From: a virus
IMG/VR virus record: IMGVR_UViG_3300037191_002707
Coordinates: 1 to 24,506 of that record
Length of the DNA stretch: 24,506 bases
Direction: 5' to 3' (one strand)
A model generated the notes under the pieces. That model saw only the letters and a list, made by a program, of their open reading frames with translations, made no database searches and was not told where the DNA came from. This document shows, one piece after another, positions 2,088 through 9,361 of this stretch (its first letter is position 1; each line of letters begins with the position of its first letter). The position numbers were made by a program, and so were the translations under genes.

Positions 2088-2906
2088 TCACTTACTCACA
2101 CTAACTGAACTAACTACTCCGTCATAAGCTGAGATGAATTCGAATCTCAATATCCGTGCAGTACTCGGCAAACCCATGCTCGCTCTTGTGAACGATTGAC
2201 TTACGAATAAAGCATCTTGGCCAGTAAGATTTGTCTTACGTTGAGCTAAGAACTCTTGAGAGTCTACTGCTGTAGCCCAGTAGCATCGTACTGAGATATT
2301 GGCGACTTCTTCAACCAATGTAGCTGAGAATGTAAACACGTCTTGATGTGACACTGAGACTGTATAAGCTTGTGCACCATGGTCACAATCGAGCCATTGT
2401 GGTGGTTGACGTATGGCCAACACCTGTTCAAGGGTAGTGGATGCAAATGGTGTTTCATTATAAGTAGCTGCTTGCTCGATACCCGATATTTCAGCAGCAT
2501 TCAGAACACCTAATGCTTGAGCATTGGCGAACATACCAGCAACTTCAGGGTCAGCTAGATTGATATAAAATTCTGGATTGTAGAGGTTATTTAATGCACG
2601 AAGAATAGCCTTGGATAGTTTAAACTGACTGATAGCAATCTCATTCGCAGTAAGGGGCTCCGCTACTTCACCTTCGAGCAACGGAGGTCTTACAGGCATT
2701 ACCGTAGAAGTACCTGCCAGCACATGCGCTGCAATATTATCGGTCAATCTATCAGTCGTATCATTAACGATAACCACTGTCTCAACTGCGGTTTTACGAA
2801 TAGCACCTTCTATGCGCCAGAGTCTAGTTGTCGGATATGCCTTAGCTTCAGCTAGCGCCAAGTTGTTATCTACGTTTGCTGTTAATAAAAATTCTGATAA
2901 GTTCAT
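2088..2906 (-). CDS. Unknown phage protein, 272 residues
   Basis: The likely start is the ATG at 2906, which overlaps the stop of the membrane-protein gene as ATGA. A TTG at 2921 in the same frame would add five residues but is less convincing. The N-terminal half is helical, with a segment ANEIAISQFKLSKAILRALN near residue 90. The C-terminal part (about 180-272) is beta-rich: QAYTVSVSHQDVFTFSATL, then a strand series ending SAYDGVVSSVSVSK. This suggests a helical mounting region followed by a beta domain, as in structural accessory proteins. Coupling to the flanking membrane-protein and fibre genes suggests it is a virion or fibre-associated component. I do not recognise the family, and no catalytic motif is visible. 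Confidence 0.75.
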   Translation of the reverse strand: MNLSEFLLTANVDNNLALAEAKAYPTTRLWRIEGAIRKTAVETVVIVNDTTDRLTDNIAAHVLAGTSTVMPVRPPLLEGEVAEPLTANEIAISQFKLSKAILRALNNLYNPEFYINLADPEVAGMFANAQALGVLNAAEISGIEQAATYNETPFASTTLEQVLAIRQPPQWLDCDHGAQAYTVSVSHQDVFTFSATLVEEVANISVRCYWATAVDSQEFLAQRKTNLTGQDALFVSQSFTRASMGLPSTARILRFEFISAYDGVVSSVSVSK

Positions 2907-3343
2907 AATAGTGTGACCCAAAAATAAGTTGCGTAAAGTGAAAGCCAGAAAGCTAATGTACCACCGATTGCGCGTCTCGCGCTGAAGTCATATATGTCAC
3001 CAGGCTTCATTGATTTCTTACAGTGATCTATTTCTTTCCTAGCGATGTAGAATAATAGATTAACGATCTTAGCAGCGTAAGTCCCACCCCGACTACCTGA
3101 TGTTTGCATATGACCTAATAGGCTGGATATATATGTCTTGTGATGGCCACCCATAATAAGGTTCGTGGCTAAATCTTCGACCAAAAAAACGCCAGTTAAC
3201 CAACTGATCTTGGGTGTAGTTTTTCTGTCGTAAGCCCATGCGAATAACGTGAATGGTATGGTCAATATGATCAGGCTCCCCCAATTCAACGCAATGAGCA
3301 AAAGGAAGAACCCACCTCTAATCCTATCGAAAACACTTATCAT
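2903..3343 (-). CDS. Small phage membrane protein, possibly lysis-associated
   Basis: This 146-residue protein begins at an ATG at 3343 without a strong ribosome-binding site. It has one long or paired hydrophobic stretch at residues about 12-37 (FFLLLIALNWGSLIILTIP and onward) and another at the C-terminus (about 127-146, LAFWLSLYATYFWVTLL). A central hydrophilic region contains NLIMGGHHKTYISSLLG and ends in KEIDHCKKSM. The GG-xxxxT-xSS-xxG pattern between membrane segments resembles, from memory, a family of small membrane proteins found near phage holin/endolysin genes. That would fit a lysis or membrane-remodelling role, but the similarity could not be tested. No endolysin is adjacent. 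The downstream 272-residue gene overlaps it by four bases. Confidence 0.75.
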   Translation of the reverse strand: MISVFDRIRGGFFLLLIALNWGSLIILTIPFTLFAWAYDRKTTPKISWLTGVFLVEDLATNLIMGGHHKTYISSLLGHMQTSGSRGGTYAAKIVNLLFYIARKEIDHCKKSMKPGDIYDFSARRAIGGTLAFWLSLYATYFWVTLL

Positions 3344-3368: not shown

Positions 3369-3689
3369 TTAATCAAACTCACCGTCTCGATGGGCGATAA
3401 TCAACTTCAGCGATGTGTCAATTTCGCCTAATTCTGCACCGGCAAAGTATTCAACGTCGCTGAAGTTCAATGGTACGGAGTCAATTGTAATTGCTTCAAT
3501 TGGCATTTCAGGGCCGGTAATGATCACGACGCTGGTTCCGATCAGCACATTTGGCTTTGGTGCATTCACGACTGTTGACACATGTGTTTCCTCAGTGCCA
3601 TCAGAAAATGTAACAACCATTGTATGAGGCAACGGTGCAACTATCGACACGTAATCCTCAGTAGCAATCAGTAGTATTTTCTCAGCCAT
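3369..3689 (-). CDS. Unknown small beta-rich protein, 106 residues
   Basis: The gene starts at an ATG two bases after the receiver gene's stop, so it is probably coupled to it. The protein is acidic and predicted mostly beta: hydrophobic strands alternate with short turns (ILLIATEDYVSIVAPLP, VLIGTSVVIITGP, LKLIIAHRDG). It has no membrane segment, signal peptide or recognisable motif. The fold could be a small beta-sandwich or barrel such as a fibre- or head-decoration-like domain, but this is only an impression from strand periodicity. Its position directly after a CheY-like receiver and before a membrane protein makes it a candidate partner in that accessory cluster. No function is assigned. 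Confidence 0.65.
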   Translation of the reverse strand: MAEKILLIATEDYVSIVAPLPHTMVVTFSDGTEETHVSTVVNAPKPNVLIGTSVVIITGPEMPIEAITIDSVPLNFSDVEYFAGAELGEIDTSLKLIIAHRDGEFD

Positions 3690-3691
3690 AA

Positions 3692-4195
3692 TTAATGTAC
3701 AACCGGGTGGCTACACCCATCTCCATATTTTGCAGTCATTAGCGCTGCAGTTCTCTGTAATTTATCAGCTTGAGATTTTTGATTCACCCACCAGTGTCGG
3801 ATCACTATATCTTCTAGCAGGTCGCCTATCGCCACGGGTTTTGTATACACATTAACGAGGTGTGATGTTAAACCATGCATGACATCGAGAATATTTTCAG
3901 ATGCAGTAACGAATGCCACGGCTATTGTTCGGGTGATAGGGTTACCGGCCAGTTGCTCGGTGACATCCTTGCCGGATAAGTTCGGCATGTTGAAATCTAA
4001 TAGGATGATGTTTGGGTTGAACCTAAGCGCTTCAGATAGTGCTTCACGACTATCAGTTATGCACTCAAACTCAATGCTTGCATGCGACAATGCTTCTTTC
4101 ATCATCGAAGTCCATACAGGGTCGTCGTCCACAACCATTACCCGTAATTCTTCGTCGTTAGGTATTACTTGCAATCCTGAATTGATATTCATCAT
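3692..4195 (-). CDS. Stand-alone CheY-like receiver-domain protein in a phage late operon
   Basis: This 167-residue protein carries a complete response-regulator receiver domain at about residues 17-140. Visible landmarks are the acidic pair in VMVVDDDP (Asp23, Asp24), the phosphoacceptor in ILLDFNMPNLSG (Asp67), the switch threonine in AFVTASE (Thr97) and the lysine before cis-proline in YTKPV (Lys119). All residues needed for Mg2+ binding and phosphotransfer are therefore present. After the receiver there are only about 40 residues (DIVIRHWWVNQKSQADKLQR and a short tail), with no DNA-binding or enzymatic output domain and no adjacent histidine kinase. The start overlaps the stop of the membrane coiled-coil gene as TAATG, and the next gene begins two bases after its stop. 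It therefore sits firmly inside the phage operon. By family knowledge it should accept phosphate from a host kinase or act by protein-protein contact; its target is unknown. Confidence 0.92.
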   Translation of the reverse strand: MMNINSGLQVIPNDEELRVMVVDDDPVWTSMMKEALSHASIEFECITDSREALSEALRFNPNIILLDFNMPNLSGKDVTEQLAGNPITRTIAVAFVTASENILDVMHGLTSHLVNVYTKPVAIGDLLEDIVIRHWWVNQKSQADKLQRTAALMTAKYGDGCSHPVVH

Positions 4196-4584
4196 TATTC
4201 TCTACCTGATAGTTTAATCATGAGTGTTTCCAACTTGCTGTAATAGTTATTAATAAAATCGTTAACTTGTGAGGCAAGCTCGCCGACATCTCTTTTTAAT
4301 TCATCAACCTTAGCATTATTTGCATCGTCAAACCTCTGGATTTTTTCGTCAATTGGTGTACCAACGTTTTCCTTAAATGCATCCGAGAGTATTTTTTGCC
4401 CTTCGGTTGATGCCATGAACTCCTTGATCACTTCCAAGGACGCATCTTTACGCTGCCTTTTCTTTACTTTCGCAACCCAAGCTGATGTGTGCTTTACTGA
4501 GTAATACGCTGGCAGTGCTAATGCAGTCCAAAGAAAATTCAAGGCATTGAAGTCCAACCCTACATCGCTCACCGTCATCATCAT
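4195..4584 (-). CDS. Membrane-anchored coiled-coil protein
   Basis: The most likely start is the first of three consecutive ATG codons, at 4584, preceded by AGCGAGA. A GTG further upstream at 4617 is in frame but lacks a ribosome-binding site. The 129-residue product has a short N-terminal segment, one hydrophobic helix at about residues 14-31 (ALNFLWTALALPAYYSV), a strongly basic stretch (KVKKRQRKD) and a charged helical C-terminal half (about 45-128) with coiled-coil-like heptads (KVDELKRDVGELASQVNDF). The positive-inside rule puts the coiled coil in the cytoplasm. Its layout recalls small phage proteins of the holin or antiholin neighbourhood (XhlA or DUF2730-like), but I cannot name the family. 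The stop overlaps the start of the receiver gene, so the two are translationally coupled. Confidence 0.75.
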   Translation of the reverse strand: MMMTVSDVGLDFNALNFLWTALALPAYYSVKHTSAWVAKVKKRQRKDASLEVIKEFMASTEGQKILSDAFKENVGTPIDEKIQRFDDANNAKVDELKRDVGELASQVNDFINNYYSKLETLMIKLSGRE

Positions 4585-4617
4585 CGTCTCGCTTATATGC
4601 GCAGAACGATTCTGCAC

Positions 4618-4739: not shown

Positions 4740-4910
4740 TTACTTAGCGTTGCCAATTTTTAAAGAAAGTATCTTTATCACGGGTGCGACGTAGACCATG
4801 ATCTTACCCAAAACCACATCGTCTTTCATTGAAGGTGTCGCCGCAACAACTGCACTTGCAATTGCTATGACCGATGTTAGCACTACGTATATGGTAAAAA
4901 GCGTATCCAT
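4740..4910 (-). CDS. Small holin-like membrane protein, 56 residues
   Basis: The ATG at 4910 follows an AAGGA ribosome-binding site and overlaps the J stop as TAATG, so it is preferred over in-frame starts lying inside J. The product has an N-terminal hydrophobic helix (about residues 3-26, containing IYVVLTSVIAIASAVVAA), a hinge TPSMKDD, and a second amphipathic or hydrophobic stretch (VLGKIMVYVAPVIKILSL) before a basic end. An N-terminal membrane helix, an ATPxxKDD hinge and a short C-terminal helix match, from memory, very short phage membrane proteins often labelled putative holins. Position directly after the tail-tip gene fits a lysis function. No lysozyme or amidase gene is found in this window to pair with it, so the holin call remains tentative. 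Confidence 0.7.
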   Translation of the reverse strand: MDTLFTIYVVLTSVIAIASAVVAATPSMKDDVVLGKIMVYVAPVIKILSLKIGNAK

Positions 4911-7900
4911 TATGTTTTCCTTAGATTTAAGTGTGACATGATTGTCGAGAGGTCTTCTTTCAGTTTGTCTATCTCTTGCTGTTGTGACTTGCACACTTCG
5001 ACTAGTAAGGCTACTTCAGCCGCTACCGAGACATGCAGCTTACCCTTTGGATTTGCTTTAACAGCTTCAGGGAATACAACCTGAACGTCTTGAGCCATTG
5101 TATGAGCAACTCTGTTATCTGGTTTACCTATCCAGTTGTACGTATACCCCGTCAACCCCATCAGCTTTTCAATAGGGTTGTCTATTACTCGCTCGTTTTC
5201 TTTGTAACGTCTATCCGATGCTGGCAAGTAGTCATCACAAAACGCGCTACCTTCGATATTTAGGTTTGCAAGAATAGTGGTTTCTTGGTAAACGTCGAAG
5301 CTGGTAGAGGTTTGTCTAGTAACCCTTATGTTACTAGAATAAGACTCTAAAATTCCTGTAGTTGATTGACGTATGCCCGTTTGAGAATCCCCTATTGCAA
5401 TACCCTTACCGTTATTCAAATTACCTGAAGCGTTTATATTACCCACGGTGATACCTGCCAGTGACTTTACACCGTTGGCAGAAACACTACCCACTATTTC
5501 CACATCGTCTTGGAAAAGTGATAGCTGGGTAACAGTAAAGCCACCTGTAAATGTTTTTGTACCTGTTATTGTTTGAGTGGTGTTGGTGTAAACACCGTTG
5601 GTGACAGTATCCGCATTGCCCATTAAAGCACCTACAAACCCATAAGCCGTCACCGTCCCTGTAACTGTAAGGGGTTGAAATGAAGTAACTAAGCTTGTAG
5701 TTAAGTTTAAGACTGAGTCCAATGAGCGAGATATACCTGTAGTAGTACTATCGCCTAATGAGAAATCCAGACTAGCTGCGTCGTTGTCCGTACTAGCCCT
5801 AATACGGGCAGATGACTGTGTAGTCTTATCATTATTAGGTATACCTGACGCATGATTAAACGTTACGTTTGCATTACCCGCACCATCATTGATAGTCATA
5901 GCTACACCACCACTAGCATACCCCGCTGTCAGTACCCCTGTAGTTGTAATGTCGTTGCTGCTAGTTAATGCACCTGTTAATGCACCCCCAGTCCTCGCAA
6001 GAGCGCTATTGCCTTTATCATAAGCTTCCTTGACTGCCTTTGAAGATGCAGCGGTAGTAGTGCTATCACTTGTTACCGAATCACTCAACGAAATGGAAGG
6101 TAGGTTACCAGCGTGATAAACCTCAAATCCATTGACCGTAATTCTACCAACTGTTCCCGAACCTGAACCCTCTAATTCTAAATCCCCAATAACAGATATT
6201 GCAGGGAATAAACCAGACGATGCCGATTGAGCAACTAACCCTATATTATCTGATGAATATGCAAATACAGCCGTACCATTTGCACGATAACTATATATGC
6301 CACCACCAACACCTGAAGGCGAATCTACAACTATACCCCTTGACGTGTTCCCCGCACCAGATGTTATGTCTAACCCTATACCACTGACACCAGTAGAACG
6401 TTGGTCTATTTTTATACCATATGCGTCAAGTACATCGGTCTGACCATACGCAGCCCTATCCAAATCTATTCTTATAGCTTGACCATACTCTACAACATAA
6501 TAACTACCGATCGACGCGGTTGTACCAAACACATTAACTTGCTGGAATGCAGTACCAGTAAAGCCATAGTAATCAACTGGAATACCTATGGCATTGATTA
6601 TTACAGCATCACCCCAGTTTGCAGCACTTATATCAATGTCGGCAACTTTTACTTTGTCAGCAGCGATATCACCCGTAGCCAAACTATCAATAATAGCCAA
6701 CCCGTTTACGACAGTTGTCCCATCGATGACTGTATTAACGGATTGCCAAACTGAACCGTCCCAATATCTAGTTTGCGAAAACACGGGTGACGCACTGCTG
6801 ATGGTGACCCTGTCATTTACCCGCTTAGTAAAACCACTGCCTGTGATCGCGGCGTCTGCTGTAGCTGGCAACCATCCAGTACCAGTAGTATAAAACTGTG
6901 CCGCGCCCCTTGGTCCCTCAACTGTGCTGGCTGGCCCCTCAACTGTGCTATCTGAACCTCTAGCAGCTATCATGTTGGTGGTTATTAAATCATTACCTTC
7001 CGTATACGCGATGGTTGTTCTATTCCACATGTACGGGAATGACGCCGATACAGCGCCTGCACCACTAAATGTTCCAGACCAGGCACCTGTTGGCGCAATT
7101 GTCGCGCTAGCTCCGAGTTGATACGCATCAGTTATACTTGATATACCTTTACCATCTTTAACATACTGGGTAATGAGCGAAACAGGACTGTCTATGTCAG
7201 CACCTATGGTTCGGGTATTCTTATTGTAATTCCACAGGTATCGGTTGTTACTTACGGGGATTTGTGGGGAAGTTAGCCAAGATCCAGATGCAATTGTTGG
7301 CGCAGTGGTCGTGTTGGTTAACTTGTAATACTCAATGGTTCCTGTATAGCTGGACCCCGATGGAAGGTCAGTGGCTCTAAGCAGTATGTAGTACCAGTCA
7401 ATACCATTACCATACCAGACATGATATGGAACAGAACTATCAGCGTTGGTAATAATGAGATTAGCACTGGGATTACCAGCGTAAACTGTGGCAGTAGCAA
7501 AATCATTAGTTAGCGAATACCTGAACTGTATTGCCTCAGCATATTTTACAACTCGCACATCATTCGGCACGAAGTATATTCTAGTACCATCATTTTCATG
7601 AATGGGTGGGTATACGATTGGCAGTGATACAGTGAACAGCACCTCAATTTCTTGGGATACACCAAAGCTGCTTCTAGCGAATGCCACAACTTTATAATCG
7701 CCACTCCCTAAGTCGGTGAATAGCTGGGTGTCATCTGATGTAATCAGTGTTTTAAACTCAGCATCGGTTGCAGCATCTTTGATTATTATCACATACTCAA
7801 AGACATTCGGATCGCCTGACTTGTACCATTTAACTCGCACTTGGTCGTCGTTGATAACCGTAGCCTCAACGCCTGTCGGGGGCATTAATATAAACGGGTC

Positions 7901-9361
7901 ACTTAAGTCAGTTTTTGGGTAATCTTGGGAATATGTTGGATTCGCCCATGGGTAAATGCTGTCCTGATGCTCGGTCATCTTATAATTGATGGACCCAGTC
8001 TTAAGTGGGGCAACACTCGTCACTCTGAACGCTTTTGTAACCCACCCATAGAACGGATCAGTTACTGAAACTATATCACCTGGTCGAACCGATTCAGTGT
8101 CAGGCGTACCCTTAAATGATATGTTGCTCAGGTCACGACTTAGGTTGGCCACAACTTCGGCCCACTTCATGACGGACGCCTTATTAATCAAAGTGTCTGC
8201 AGTAACTTCGACAGGTAACGGAACATCATTATCTTCGGCAAGCCATTCGGTATGCACTACACTACCTGTTTCTGGGTACACAACTTGGTCATCTTCAAAA
8301 TTCAACGCTTTGTTTTTAAACGTTACCGTTACTTGGTTTGACTTCCTACCTCTTGATTTTTTGGTTAATTCAACACCCTTTTCGATATTACTTGCGTCAA
8401 ATGCGAATGTTGGTAAACCACTATCCTCAATCAATAATTCCATTTCACCAATTGAGTTGGGTGTCATCCCCCTCATTCCGGCTCGAAGAACATTAATGTT
8501 TTTGAACAAATCTTGGCTTGTATCTATCGTGACATCGCACGGCATTAACGGAGTGTTAATTATCACTTGGTTAGTCACCCACCTGGTTAATGATGGTAGT
8601 CCAAGTTCCAACCACCTATCACCGCCGCCTGACCAATCCTCAAGCAACCAATTTGGTTGAATCGCACCGATAGTATCTATCTCGACAATATTTTGATTCT
8701 CAGTACCACCGACTGCTTGATGGGTGATTGCAGCTGCCGCAATAAAAGAGTCTTTATTAATACTTATTTCACTTGCAGCGCGCCCATATCTTGGACGGGA
8801 TATATAGTCAGCCAAGCAGTATGGAGCAACGTTTGAATATTCAACCACGTTGGTTGCTAGGTTTTTTACCTTCTTACCTTTACTGATGTGTACTGTAATT
8901 TTAGGTACGCCACGGAATATGTTTTGGTCGCCGTTTTGACGCAATCGAATGTAAACATATGCAAGTCCACTAAGTTTATCAGTTGAACTCCAACCCACAC
9001 CGTGGTTGATCAGTGTTTGGCATGCGGATTGACCATCTGCACCATTGAATCTCTCTATGTGAACCCATCTGCTACCACCCCATTTGGGGTCGTGCTCGCT
9101 GATACCGTTAAAAAAAACAGTACCGATTGTATCAATTTCACCTTCACACAACACGTAAACCAAATGGAGGTAATCATTCCAAGGACCACCACTTATATCT
9201 GAACTTCGTTTAAAAATCTCGATGCCACCGACCATTTGCTCACCGTAAACCACAGGTACTTTTTGGTTAGTACCTGACTTAGTGAGAGTTTGACCTTGGG
9301 CCTCTTCTTCTGGTATGAGCCAATCTAAAAGCCAATCTACGATCCCTGATAACAAACCCAT
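4910..9361 (-). CDS. J: Tail-tip attachment protein J fused to a tail fibre with S74 intramolecular chaperone
   Basis: This 1483-residue protein is longer than lambda J (1132). Residues 1-480 match the J tip module (LVYVLCEGEIDTIGTVFFNG, then a PRYGRA segment). A fibronectin type III domain lies at about 487-580 (PPTGVEATVINDDQVRVKWY). A short glycine/proline-rich linker near 810 and a VIDGTTVVNGLAI segment near 877 lead into a fibre shaft. From about 1084 there are fibre-type repeats (VYHAGN, then SDSTTTAASSKAVKEAYDKG). The C-terminal about 102 residues are a peptidase S74/endosialidase-type chaperone: ASDRRYKEN with Ser1382 and Lys1387 (the +5 lysine of the known Ser/Lys dyad), then MAQDVQVVFPEAV and a closing coiled coil. 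This domain trimerises the fibre and cuts itself off before that Ser in relatives. The start overlaps the upstream stop as TAATG. Confidence 0.93.
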   Translation of the reverse strand: MGLLSGIVDWLLDWLIPEEEAQGQTLTKSGTNQKVPVVYGEQMVGGIEIFKRSSDISGGPWNDYLHLVYVLCEGEIDTIGTVFFNGISEHDPKWGGSRWVHIERFNGADGQSACQTLINHGVGWSSTDKLSGLAYVYIRLRQNGDQNIFRGVPKITVHISKGKKVKNLATNVVEYSNVAPYCLADYISRPRYGRAASEISINKDSFIAAAAITHQAVGGTENQNIVEIDTIGAIQPNWLLEDWSGGGDRWLELGLPSLTRWVTNQVIINTPLMPCDVTIDTSQDLFKNINVLRAGMRGMTPNSIGEMELLIEDSGLPTFAFDASNIEKGVELTKKSRGRKSNQVTVTFKNKALNFEDDQVVYPETGSVVHTEWLAEDNDVPLPVEVTADTLINKASVMKWAEVVANLSRDLSNISFKGTPDTESVRPGDIVSVTDPFYGWVTKAFRVTSVAPLKTGSINYKMTEHQDSIYPWANPTYSQDYPKTDLSDPFILMPPTGVEATVINDDQVRVKWYKSGDPNVFEYVIIIKDAATDAEFKTLITSDDTQLFTDLGSGDYKVVAFARSSFGVSQEIEVLFTVSLPIVYPPIHENDGTRIYFVPNDVRVVKYAEAIQFRYSLTNDFATATVYAGNPSANLIITNADSSVPYHVWYGNGIDWYYILLRATDLPSGSSYTGTIEYYKLTNTTTAPTIASGSWLTSPQIPVSNNRYLWNYNKNTRTIGADIDSPVSLITQYVKDGKGISSITDAYQLGASATIAPTGAWSGTFSGAGAVSASFPYMWNRTTIAYTEGNDLITTNMIAARGSDSTVEGPASTVEGPRGAAQFYTTGTGWLPATADAAITGSGFTKRVNDRVTISSASPVFSQTRYWDGSVWQSVNTVIDGTTVVNGLAIIDSLATGDIAADKVKVADIDISAANWGDAVIINAIGIPVDYYGFTGTAFQQVNVFGTTASIGSYYVVEYGQAIRIDLDRAAYGQTDVLDAYGIKIDQRSTGVSGIGLDITSGAGNTSRGIVVDSPSGVGGGIYSYRANGTAVFAYSSDNIGLVAQSASSGLFPAISVIGDLELEGSGSGTVGRITVNGFEVYHAGNLPSISLSDSVTSDSTTTAASSKAVKEAYDKGNSALARTGGALTGALTSSNDITTTGVLTAGYASGGVAMTINDGAGNANVTFNHASGIPNNDKTTQSSARIRASTDNDAASLDFSLGDSTTTGISRSLDSVLNLTTSLVTSFQPLTVTGTVTAYGFVGALMGNADTVTNGVYTNTTQTITGTKTFTGGFTVTQLSLFQDDVEIVGSVSANGVKSLAGITVGNINASGNLNNGKGIAIGDSQTGIRQSTTGILESYSSNIRVTRQTSTSFDVYQETTILANLNIEGSAFCDDYLPASDRRYKENERVIDNPIEKLMGLTGYTYNWIGKPDNRVAHTMAQDVQVVFPEAVKANPKGKLHVSVAAEVALLVEVCKSQQQEIDKLKEDLSTIMSHLNLRKT

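Follow-up and report, generated by a model that had tools for sequence, protein, structure and literature searches.

Phage lysis timing is usually attributed to the accumulation of a holin, and in T4 or N4 to lysis inhibition as well. In T4 the holin T is timed by the antiholins RI and RIII, and the domain of T that RI binds is periplasmic. As in the arrangement proposed below, a regulator bound to a single-span holin sets the timing of lysis, but RI and RIII are not receivers. The nearest parallel known from experiment is the gp63 protein of N4 with its regulator gp62 (PMC12642591). N4 gp63 is a small membrane pinholin in which a cytoplasmic helical domain sets lysis timing, and rapid-lysis mutations cluster there (PMC12642591). 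The partner protein described here is likewise a small membrane protein with a predicted cytoplasmic helical part. The N4 lysis cassette contains no CheY-like protein, however, and the "Receiver domain" of gp63 is the name given to a mutational cluster (PMC12642591). Bacterial CheY, DivK and Spo0F have the receiver fold and its catalytic residues without an output domain and act through protein contact. In the literature searched, most of it outside subscription journals, nothing links a CheY-like receiver to phage lysis, and no report of a two-component phosphorylation input to phage lysis timing was found, nor any experimental work on a member of the group described below.

CheY-like genes of Alteromonas phages have been described under other functions. 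V22 gp30 and A5 gp11 were published as CheY-like class II auxiliary metabolic genes belonging to a shared host-recognition module, in passages that treat neither a link to lysis nor the partner gene (PMC7289586, PMC10579305). R8W gp48 was published as "PhoB", a DNA-binding phosphate regulator (PMC8228385), though it has no DNA-binding domain, and R9Y2 gp12 is annotated as hypothetical. In public annotation V22 gp30 (L101:10750-11199) is a "hybrid sensor histidine kinase - response regulator" and R8W gp48 (L003:9037-9498) a "DNA-binding response regulator"; both are receiver-only, and the V22 protein has no kinase domain. Coordinates in other phages are given on loci labelled L101 (V22), L102 (A5), L003 (R8W), L006 (XX1924), L007 (V19) and L008 (Bhz63).

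We analyzed a stretch of 24,506 nucleotides of a marine phage, from IMG/VR virus record IMGVR_UViG_3300037191_002707, here called the window. The sequence-only reading of this DNA had picked out a CheY-like protein with a full catalytic set and with neither a kinase nor an output domain, coupled by TAATG to a membrane coiled-coil gene, followed two bases later by a small gene and lying between tail-tip and fibre genes. Each of these points was borne out (Table 1), although the membrane segment of the upstream protein proves weak. That upstream protein, a membrane-anchored coiled-coil protein, is called TMCC below. Like the window receiver, V22 (a myovirus) gp30 and A5 (a schitovirus) gp11 are stand-alone receivers encoded where the tail genes end, directly after a small membrane/coiled-coil gene. 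R8W gp48 and R9Y2 gp12 also share with the window receiver a coupled TMCC gene, and these two phages have an adjacent lysis gene as well.

Table 1. Features of the window around the receiver gene
Feature	Positions	Strand	Evidence or context
Fibre-like genes	626-2086, 2088-2921		downstream of receiver
146-aa membrane protein, phrog_3342	2903-3343	-	E 2.5e-5; relatives in R9Y2 and R9Y3
106-aa protein, no family found	3369-3689	-	starts two bases after receiver stop
Single-domain receiver (CheY-like)	3692-4195	-	PF00072, catalytic residues, AlphaFold, Foldseek
TMCC: weakly hydrophobic N-terminal segment and predicted cytoplasmic coiled coil	4195-4617	-	stop overlaps receiver ATG
57-aa membrane protein, phrog_9685	4740-4913	-	E 3.7e-7; between tail-tip gene and TMCC
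Tail-tip/central fibre protein	4910-9361	-	directly upstream of module; P24 central fibre match E 3e-30

The receiver ORF begins with ATG and codes for 167 amino acids. A family search of these residues, as the sequence-only reading had proposed, matched Response_reg (PF00072) over residues 19-129 with an E-value of 4.9e-17 and 62.5 bits, against a curated cut-off of 30.2 bits, and the phage searches gave relatives in Alteromonas phages. The acid pair D23/D24, the phosphoacceptor D67, T97 and K119 are all present. Response_reg is the sole Pfam domain in the protein; about 38 residues remain after it, with no domain in them and no C-terminal winged helix. The window protein is a single-domain response regulator of the CheY/DivK type, a receiver without an output domain, and not a DNA-binding regulator of the OmpR/PhoB type. 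The AlphaFold model (mean pLDDT 74.5) has the receiver fold, and Foldseek matches it to the solved structures of PleD, VicR, RpaA, CheY and DivK. In this model the C-terminal extension lengthens alpha-5 to residues 123-157, with low confidence there. At the aromatic switch position (K-3) the window receiver has Val and the other phage receivers have Tyr. The GC content of the gene is 0.438 versus 0.434 for the window. There is one receiver match in the whole record, a 24.5-kb fragment, and in family searches of its proteins we noticed no kinase. Unlike CheY, DivK and Spo0F, the window receiver is phage-encoded, has no known cognate kinase, carries an extended alpha-5 and is paired with a membrane coiled-coil partner.

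The TMCC gene probably starts at the ATG at 4584, with a GTG at 4617 as a possible alternative. At the TAATG junction the last A of its stop codon (position 4195) is the A of the receiver ATG, and a second ATG follows directly after the first. The membrane segment of the window TMCC has a Kyte-Doolittle value of 1.15 over 19 residues, and its AlphaFold model (mean pLDDT 51.6) has nothing interpretable beyond helices. An HMM built from the R9Y/R8W TMCC proteins placed the window TMCC at the top of 993 ORFs, at an E-value of only 0.015, and hhalign of the window TMCC against that family gave a probability of 6.4% (E 0.006). With tblastn the window TMCC had no credible phage relative. Between TMCC proteins of different lineages the hhalign probabilities were 0.2-6.4%, and homology across all lineages is not demonstrable. 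The window TMCC appears to agree with a class III single-span holin or pinholin in topology and size only. In most of these phages a different protein is also a holin candidate, so TMCC need not be the holin. Homology of TMCC to N4 gp60-gp63 was also considered and was not significant, the sole clear match being that of the R8W holin to gp62.

The pair sits in a minus-strand late operon that runs through terminase, portal, capsid, tail genes, the tail-tip gene and the gene for the 57-aa protein to TMCC and the receiver. After the receiver come the 106-aa protein, the phrog_3342 membrane protein, which matches its R9Y2 relative at an E-value of 3e-8, and fibre-like genes up to the contig end. 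The fibre-like gene at 1-657 runs off that end, and part of it matches an R9Y-type contig of IMG/VR (L012:6-434). The 57-aa phrog_9685 protein has no Pfam match and is holin-like in size only. Promoters around the pair showed no excess over shuffled sequence, and terminator-like sites numbered 5 versus 2.5 expected. The terminase shares 47% identity with its counterpart in the Alteromonas phage P24, which makes an Alteromonas-type host likely though unproven. In the window, a 24.5-kb fragment, we recognised neither an endolysin nor a spanin. P24 has its lysozyme gene upstream of the terminase, a position that would fall off the window contig. P24 has fibre and chaperone genes in common with V22 and A5, and no receiver was found in it.

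To determine how widespread the pair is, we searched 50,697 phage records. Stand-alone receivers were found in R9Y1-3, R8W, H4, PB15, XX1924, V22, A5 and V19, all of them Alteromonas isolates, spanning sipho-, podo- and myoviruses. The receivers of R8W and R9Y2 are the closest phage relatives of the window receiver at 29-33% identity, and V22 gp30 and A5 gp11 are only about 20% identical to it. In IMG/VR a single-sequence search with the window receiver found no close relatives, and an alignment query found five loci; further scans gave few or no new relatives, the final one adding two cassettes. The pair architecture is also present at IMG/VR loci L010-L014 and L105-L106. The earlier statement that such a receiver is not a standard phage module holds for phages at large; in Alteromonas phages, though, the gene recurs and had been noted before as CheY-like or "PhoB".

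In each of these Alteromonas phages the gene directly upstream, spaced -10 to +5 nt from the receiver, codes for a small protein (93-129 amino acids) that combines a single predicted membrane segment with a coiled-coil or helical region. The anchor is N-terminal except in PB15 and XX1924, where it is C-terminal. The partner protein of these two phages matches the phage hemolysin family phrog_937, with 88% identity between them. Judged from the charges flanking the anchor by the positive-inside rule, the coiled coil is predicted to be cytoplasmic in all 10 proteins tested. BLAST relatives of the R9Y, R8W and V22 TMCC proteins occur in receiver-bearing phages only. As a control we took 79 cellular receivers, fetched by similarity, and looked next to each for a small coupled ORF whose membrane segment scored at least 1.6 on the Kyte-Doolittle scale. 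None of the 79 had one; the control maximum was 1.53, from an ORF resembling an ordinary soluble protein. The anchors of the window, V22, A5 and L105 proteins are weak (1.15-1.31), so hydrophobicity alone cannot separate these four from the controls. The coupled pair of receiver and membrane coiled-coil protein is real and beyond chance.

Other database matches to the receiver queries were mostly unannotated records, and the few inspected proved to be cellular DNA or systems of another kind. The receiver of Pseudomonas phage Y11 was set aside, as its neighbours, a fused receiver-GGDEF protein and a methyl-accepting-type protein, make it look like host DNA. Stenotrophomonas phage Bhz63 (L008:6001-7547) has a viral two-component arrangement of another sort, with a full PhoP-like regulator and, after it, a gene whose annotation gives a kinase-type conserved domain. 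A large number of matches in unannotated "phage" records of Listeria, Staphylococcus and Acinetobacter were set aside as a group for similar reasons. Many "phage" records matching the queries (OR84xxxx, CAKLQ) resemble fragments of bacterial chromosomes, for example Acinetobacter records of more than 300 kb with the response-regulator genes PhoB, OmpR and CreB.

An endolysin, holin or spanin gene is adjacent to the pair in R9Y, R8W, PB15, XX1924, V22 and A5. R9Y2 encodes TMCC, the receiver and a GH108 endolysin, the endolysin start overlapping the receiver stop, and in R8W the order is class II holin, TMCC, receiver, membrane protein, terminase. PB15 has a phrog_937 protein, the receiver, an M15 peptidase and a 3TM holin; XX1924 has a phrog_937-like protein, the receiver, DUF5675 and a 3TM holin. 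In V22 a C92-type amidase (its Pfam match is below the cut-off) precedes TMCC and the receiver, which are followed by an Rz-like spanin, a 2TM protein and, farther down, DUF5675. A5 encodes TMCC, the receiver, an overlapping Rz-like spanin, a 2TM protein and an annotated endolysin. The V22 spanin gene overlaps the receiver gene by 32 bp, and this overlap of receiver end and spanin start is about 32-35 bases in the two phages (L101:11168-11199 in V22; L102:5410-5444 in A5), suggesting tight translational coupling. IMG/VR contigs L105 and L106 repeat the V22/A5 order, with a lipoprotein-type Rz1 overlapping Rz. In V19 TMCC and the receiver are convergent with a 3TM-like protein and DUF5675, and it is through these two genes that V19 has lysis-type neighbours.

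DUF5675 (phrog_1501) recurs near the receiver, in XX1924 (L006:2438-2836), V22 (L101:12829-13236) and V19 (L007:7027-7422). An ORF similar to it is found at L105:8315-8713, and the recurrent DUF5675 occupies an endolysin-like position.

By a rough hand estimate from gene counts in the records, which leaves aside the enrichment of lysis genes at late-operon ends, the chance that in four independent lineages a random gene would have a lysis gene no more than three genes away is of order 1e-4. Because of shared sequence, R9Y/R8W and V22/A5 each entered this estimate as one lineage. The pair often has tail fibres for neighbours too, so position by itself cannot tell a role in lysis from one in host recognition.

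We also examined selection on the receivers. For R8W and H4 the dN/dS is 0.16, and for R9Y2 versus its close IMG/VR relatives it is 0.10-0.13; more distant pairs gave about 0.09-0.12 with dS saturated, and the receiver values overall span 0.08-0.16. The ratios, about 0.1, indicate that the phage receivers are under purifying selection. In an alignment of seven representatives, one per lineage, only 10 of the 126 columns are conserved in six or more lineages. These are mostly catalytic or switch residues and include D23, D24, D67, K119, G75 and the switch Tyr. The V19 receiver has Pro in place of Asp67 and Ile in place of Lys119 in the alignment, with the reading frame and the pair retained, which points to a contact function. 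It is a natural pseudoreceiver (L007:5998-6450), an intact ORF coupled to a membrane partner.

A tree of 11 phage and 39 cellular receivers placed all the phage proteins on one side of a branch from the cellular ones, with an SH-aLRT of 88, below the program's star level, and with long branches for the window and V19 receivers. A single origin of the phage receivers is possible on this tree. A genome scan for their origin among cellular receivers gave ordinary bacterial receivers of many phyla, which served as controls and outgroup.

The explanation that we favor, at somewhat less than even probability, is that of a lysis-linked, membrane-tethered pair in which phosphorylation of the receiver would control a step of lysis. 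The receiver would be a late-expressed, phosphorylation-competent, stand-alone protein working with the membrane-anchored coiled-coil product of the preceding gene, the two forming a lysis-associated regulatory pair. The cytoplasmic coiled coil would dock the receiver, probably via its long alpha-5. A host histidine kinase or acetyl phosphate could then phosphorylate D67 and so shift the contact between the receiver and TMCC, and with the shifted contact the membrane (holin/spanin) step of lysis may be triggered earlier or later. The more specific form, in which the membrane coiled coil and the CheY-like receiver make up an Alteromonas phage switch, a phosphorylation-gated antiholin/holin regulator tying lysis timing to phosphorylation by the host or acetyl phosphate, is put forward tentatively, as roughly a third of the probability. 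That the receiver might time a late event such as lysis had been one of two suggestions of the sequence-only reading. It gained partial support from the pair lying within or against the lysis cassettes of several unrelated Alteromonas phages and from V19 keeping the pair without the phosphoacceptor.

The other suggestion was interception of host histidine-kinase signalling, for example in motility. Here the receiver would drain phosphoryl groups from a host histidine kinase or mimic its regulator, in envelope stress, chemotaxis or another pathway, with the coiled-coil partner merely tethering it near membrane kinases. The conserved catalytic site, kept in all lineages but V19, is compatible with this, as are the missing output domain and the predicted membrane tether; nothing specific points to motility. 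An intact catalytic site fits lysis control and kinase interception alike. However, the V19 pair persists after loss of the Asp and the Lys, so a phosphate sink cannot be the sole role. Host-takeover genes are usually early, and placement in a late operon, inside lysis cassettes, is not expected of them. A contact role in lysis is favored because V19 loses the phosphoacceptor and because spanin genes overlap receivers, and we consider interception, the main alternative, possible but unlikely. Sequence similarity to PhoB receivers underlies the proposal, made for R8W gp48, of an auxiliary metabolic or transcriptional regulator, a viral PhoB raising phosphate uptake (PMC8228385). This is very improbable because the output domain is absent: no member has a DNA-binding domain, and the proteins end a few tens of residues past the receiver.

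The neighboring fibre genes raise the question of whether the receiver is instead part of the tail-fibre "host recognition module" put forward for V22 and A5 (PMC10579305), or a passenger on it, moving with fibres and chaperones when these are exchanged. V22 and A5 have fibre, chaperone and receiver in common, R8W and R9Y2 share fibre sequence besides the receiver, and the window and R9Y2 have a fibre-like gene in common. P24, however, has the related fibre and chaperone with its lysis gene elsewhere, and no receiver was found in it. The V19 pair is beside lysis-type genes on the opposite strand from the V19 tail genes, and the V22 and A5 receivers are followed by genes for Rz-like spanin and 2TM proteins, not by recognition genes. 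These observations make a recognition role quite unlikely. Less probable again is a sensor for superinfection exclusion or lysis inhibition, in which the pair would detect a second infection at the membrane and delay lysis, much as the N4 pinholin gp63 is suspected of doing through its cytoplasmic region. N4 rapid-lysis mutants map to that region (PMC12642591), and the protein before the receiver in PB15 and XX1924 has the gp63 layout of a cytoplasmic helical domain and a C-terminal membrane segment. The similarity to gp63 is weak and coiled-coil biased, though, and our literature search gave no reports of lysis inhibition for these phages.

The individual genes were already known, and the recurrent module of a membrane partner and a receiver tied to lysis appears to be new. 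The pair recurs among sipho-, podo- and myoviruses that infect a single host genus, and it is a testable candidate for a two-component input to lysis timing. Genes now classed as auxiliary, whether metabolic or PhoB-like, may in fact regulate lysis.
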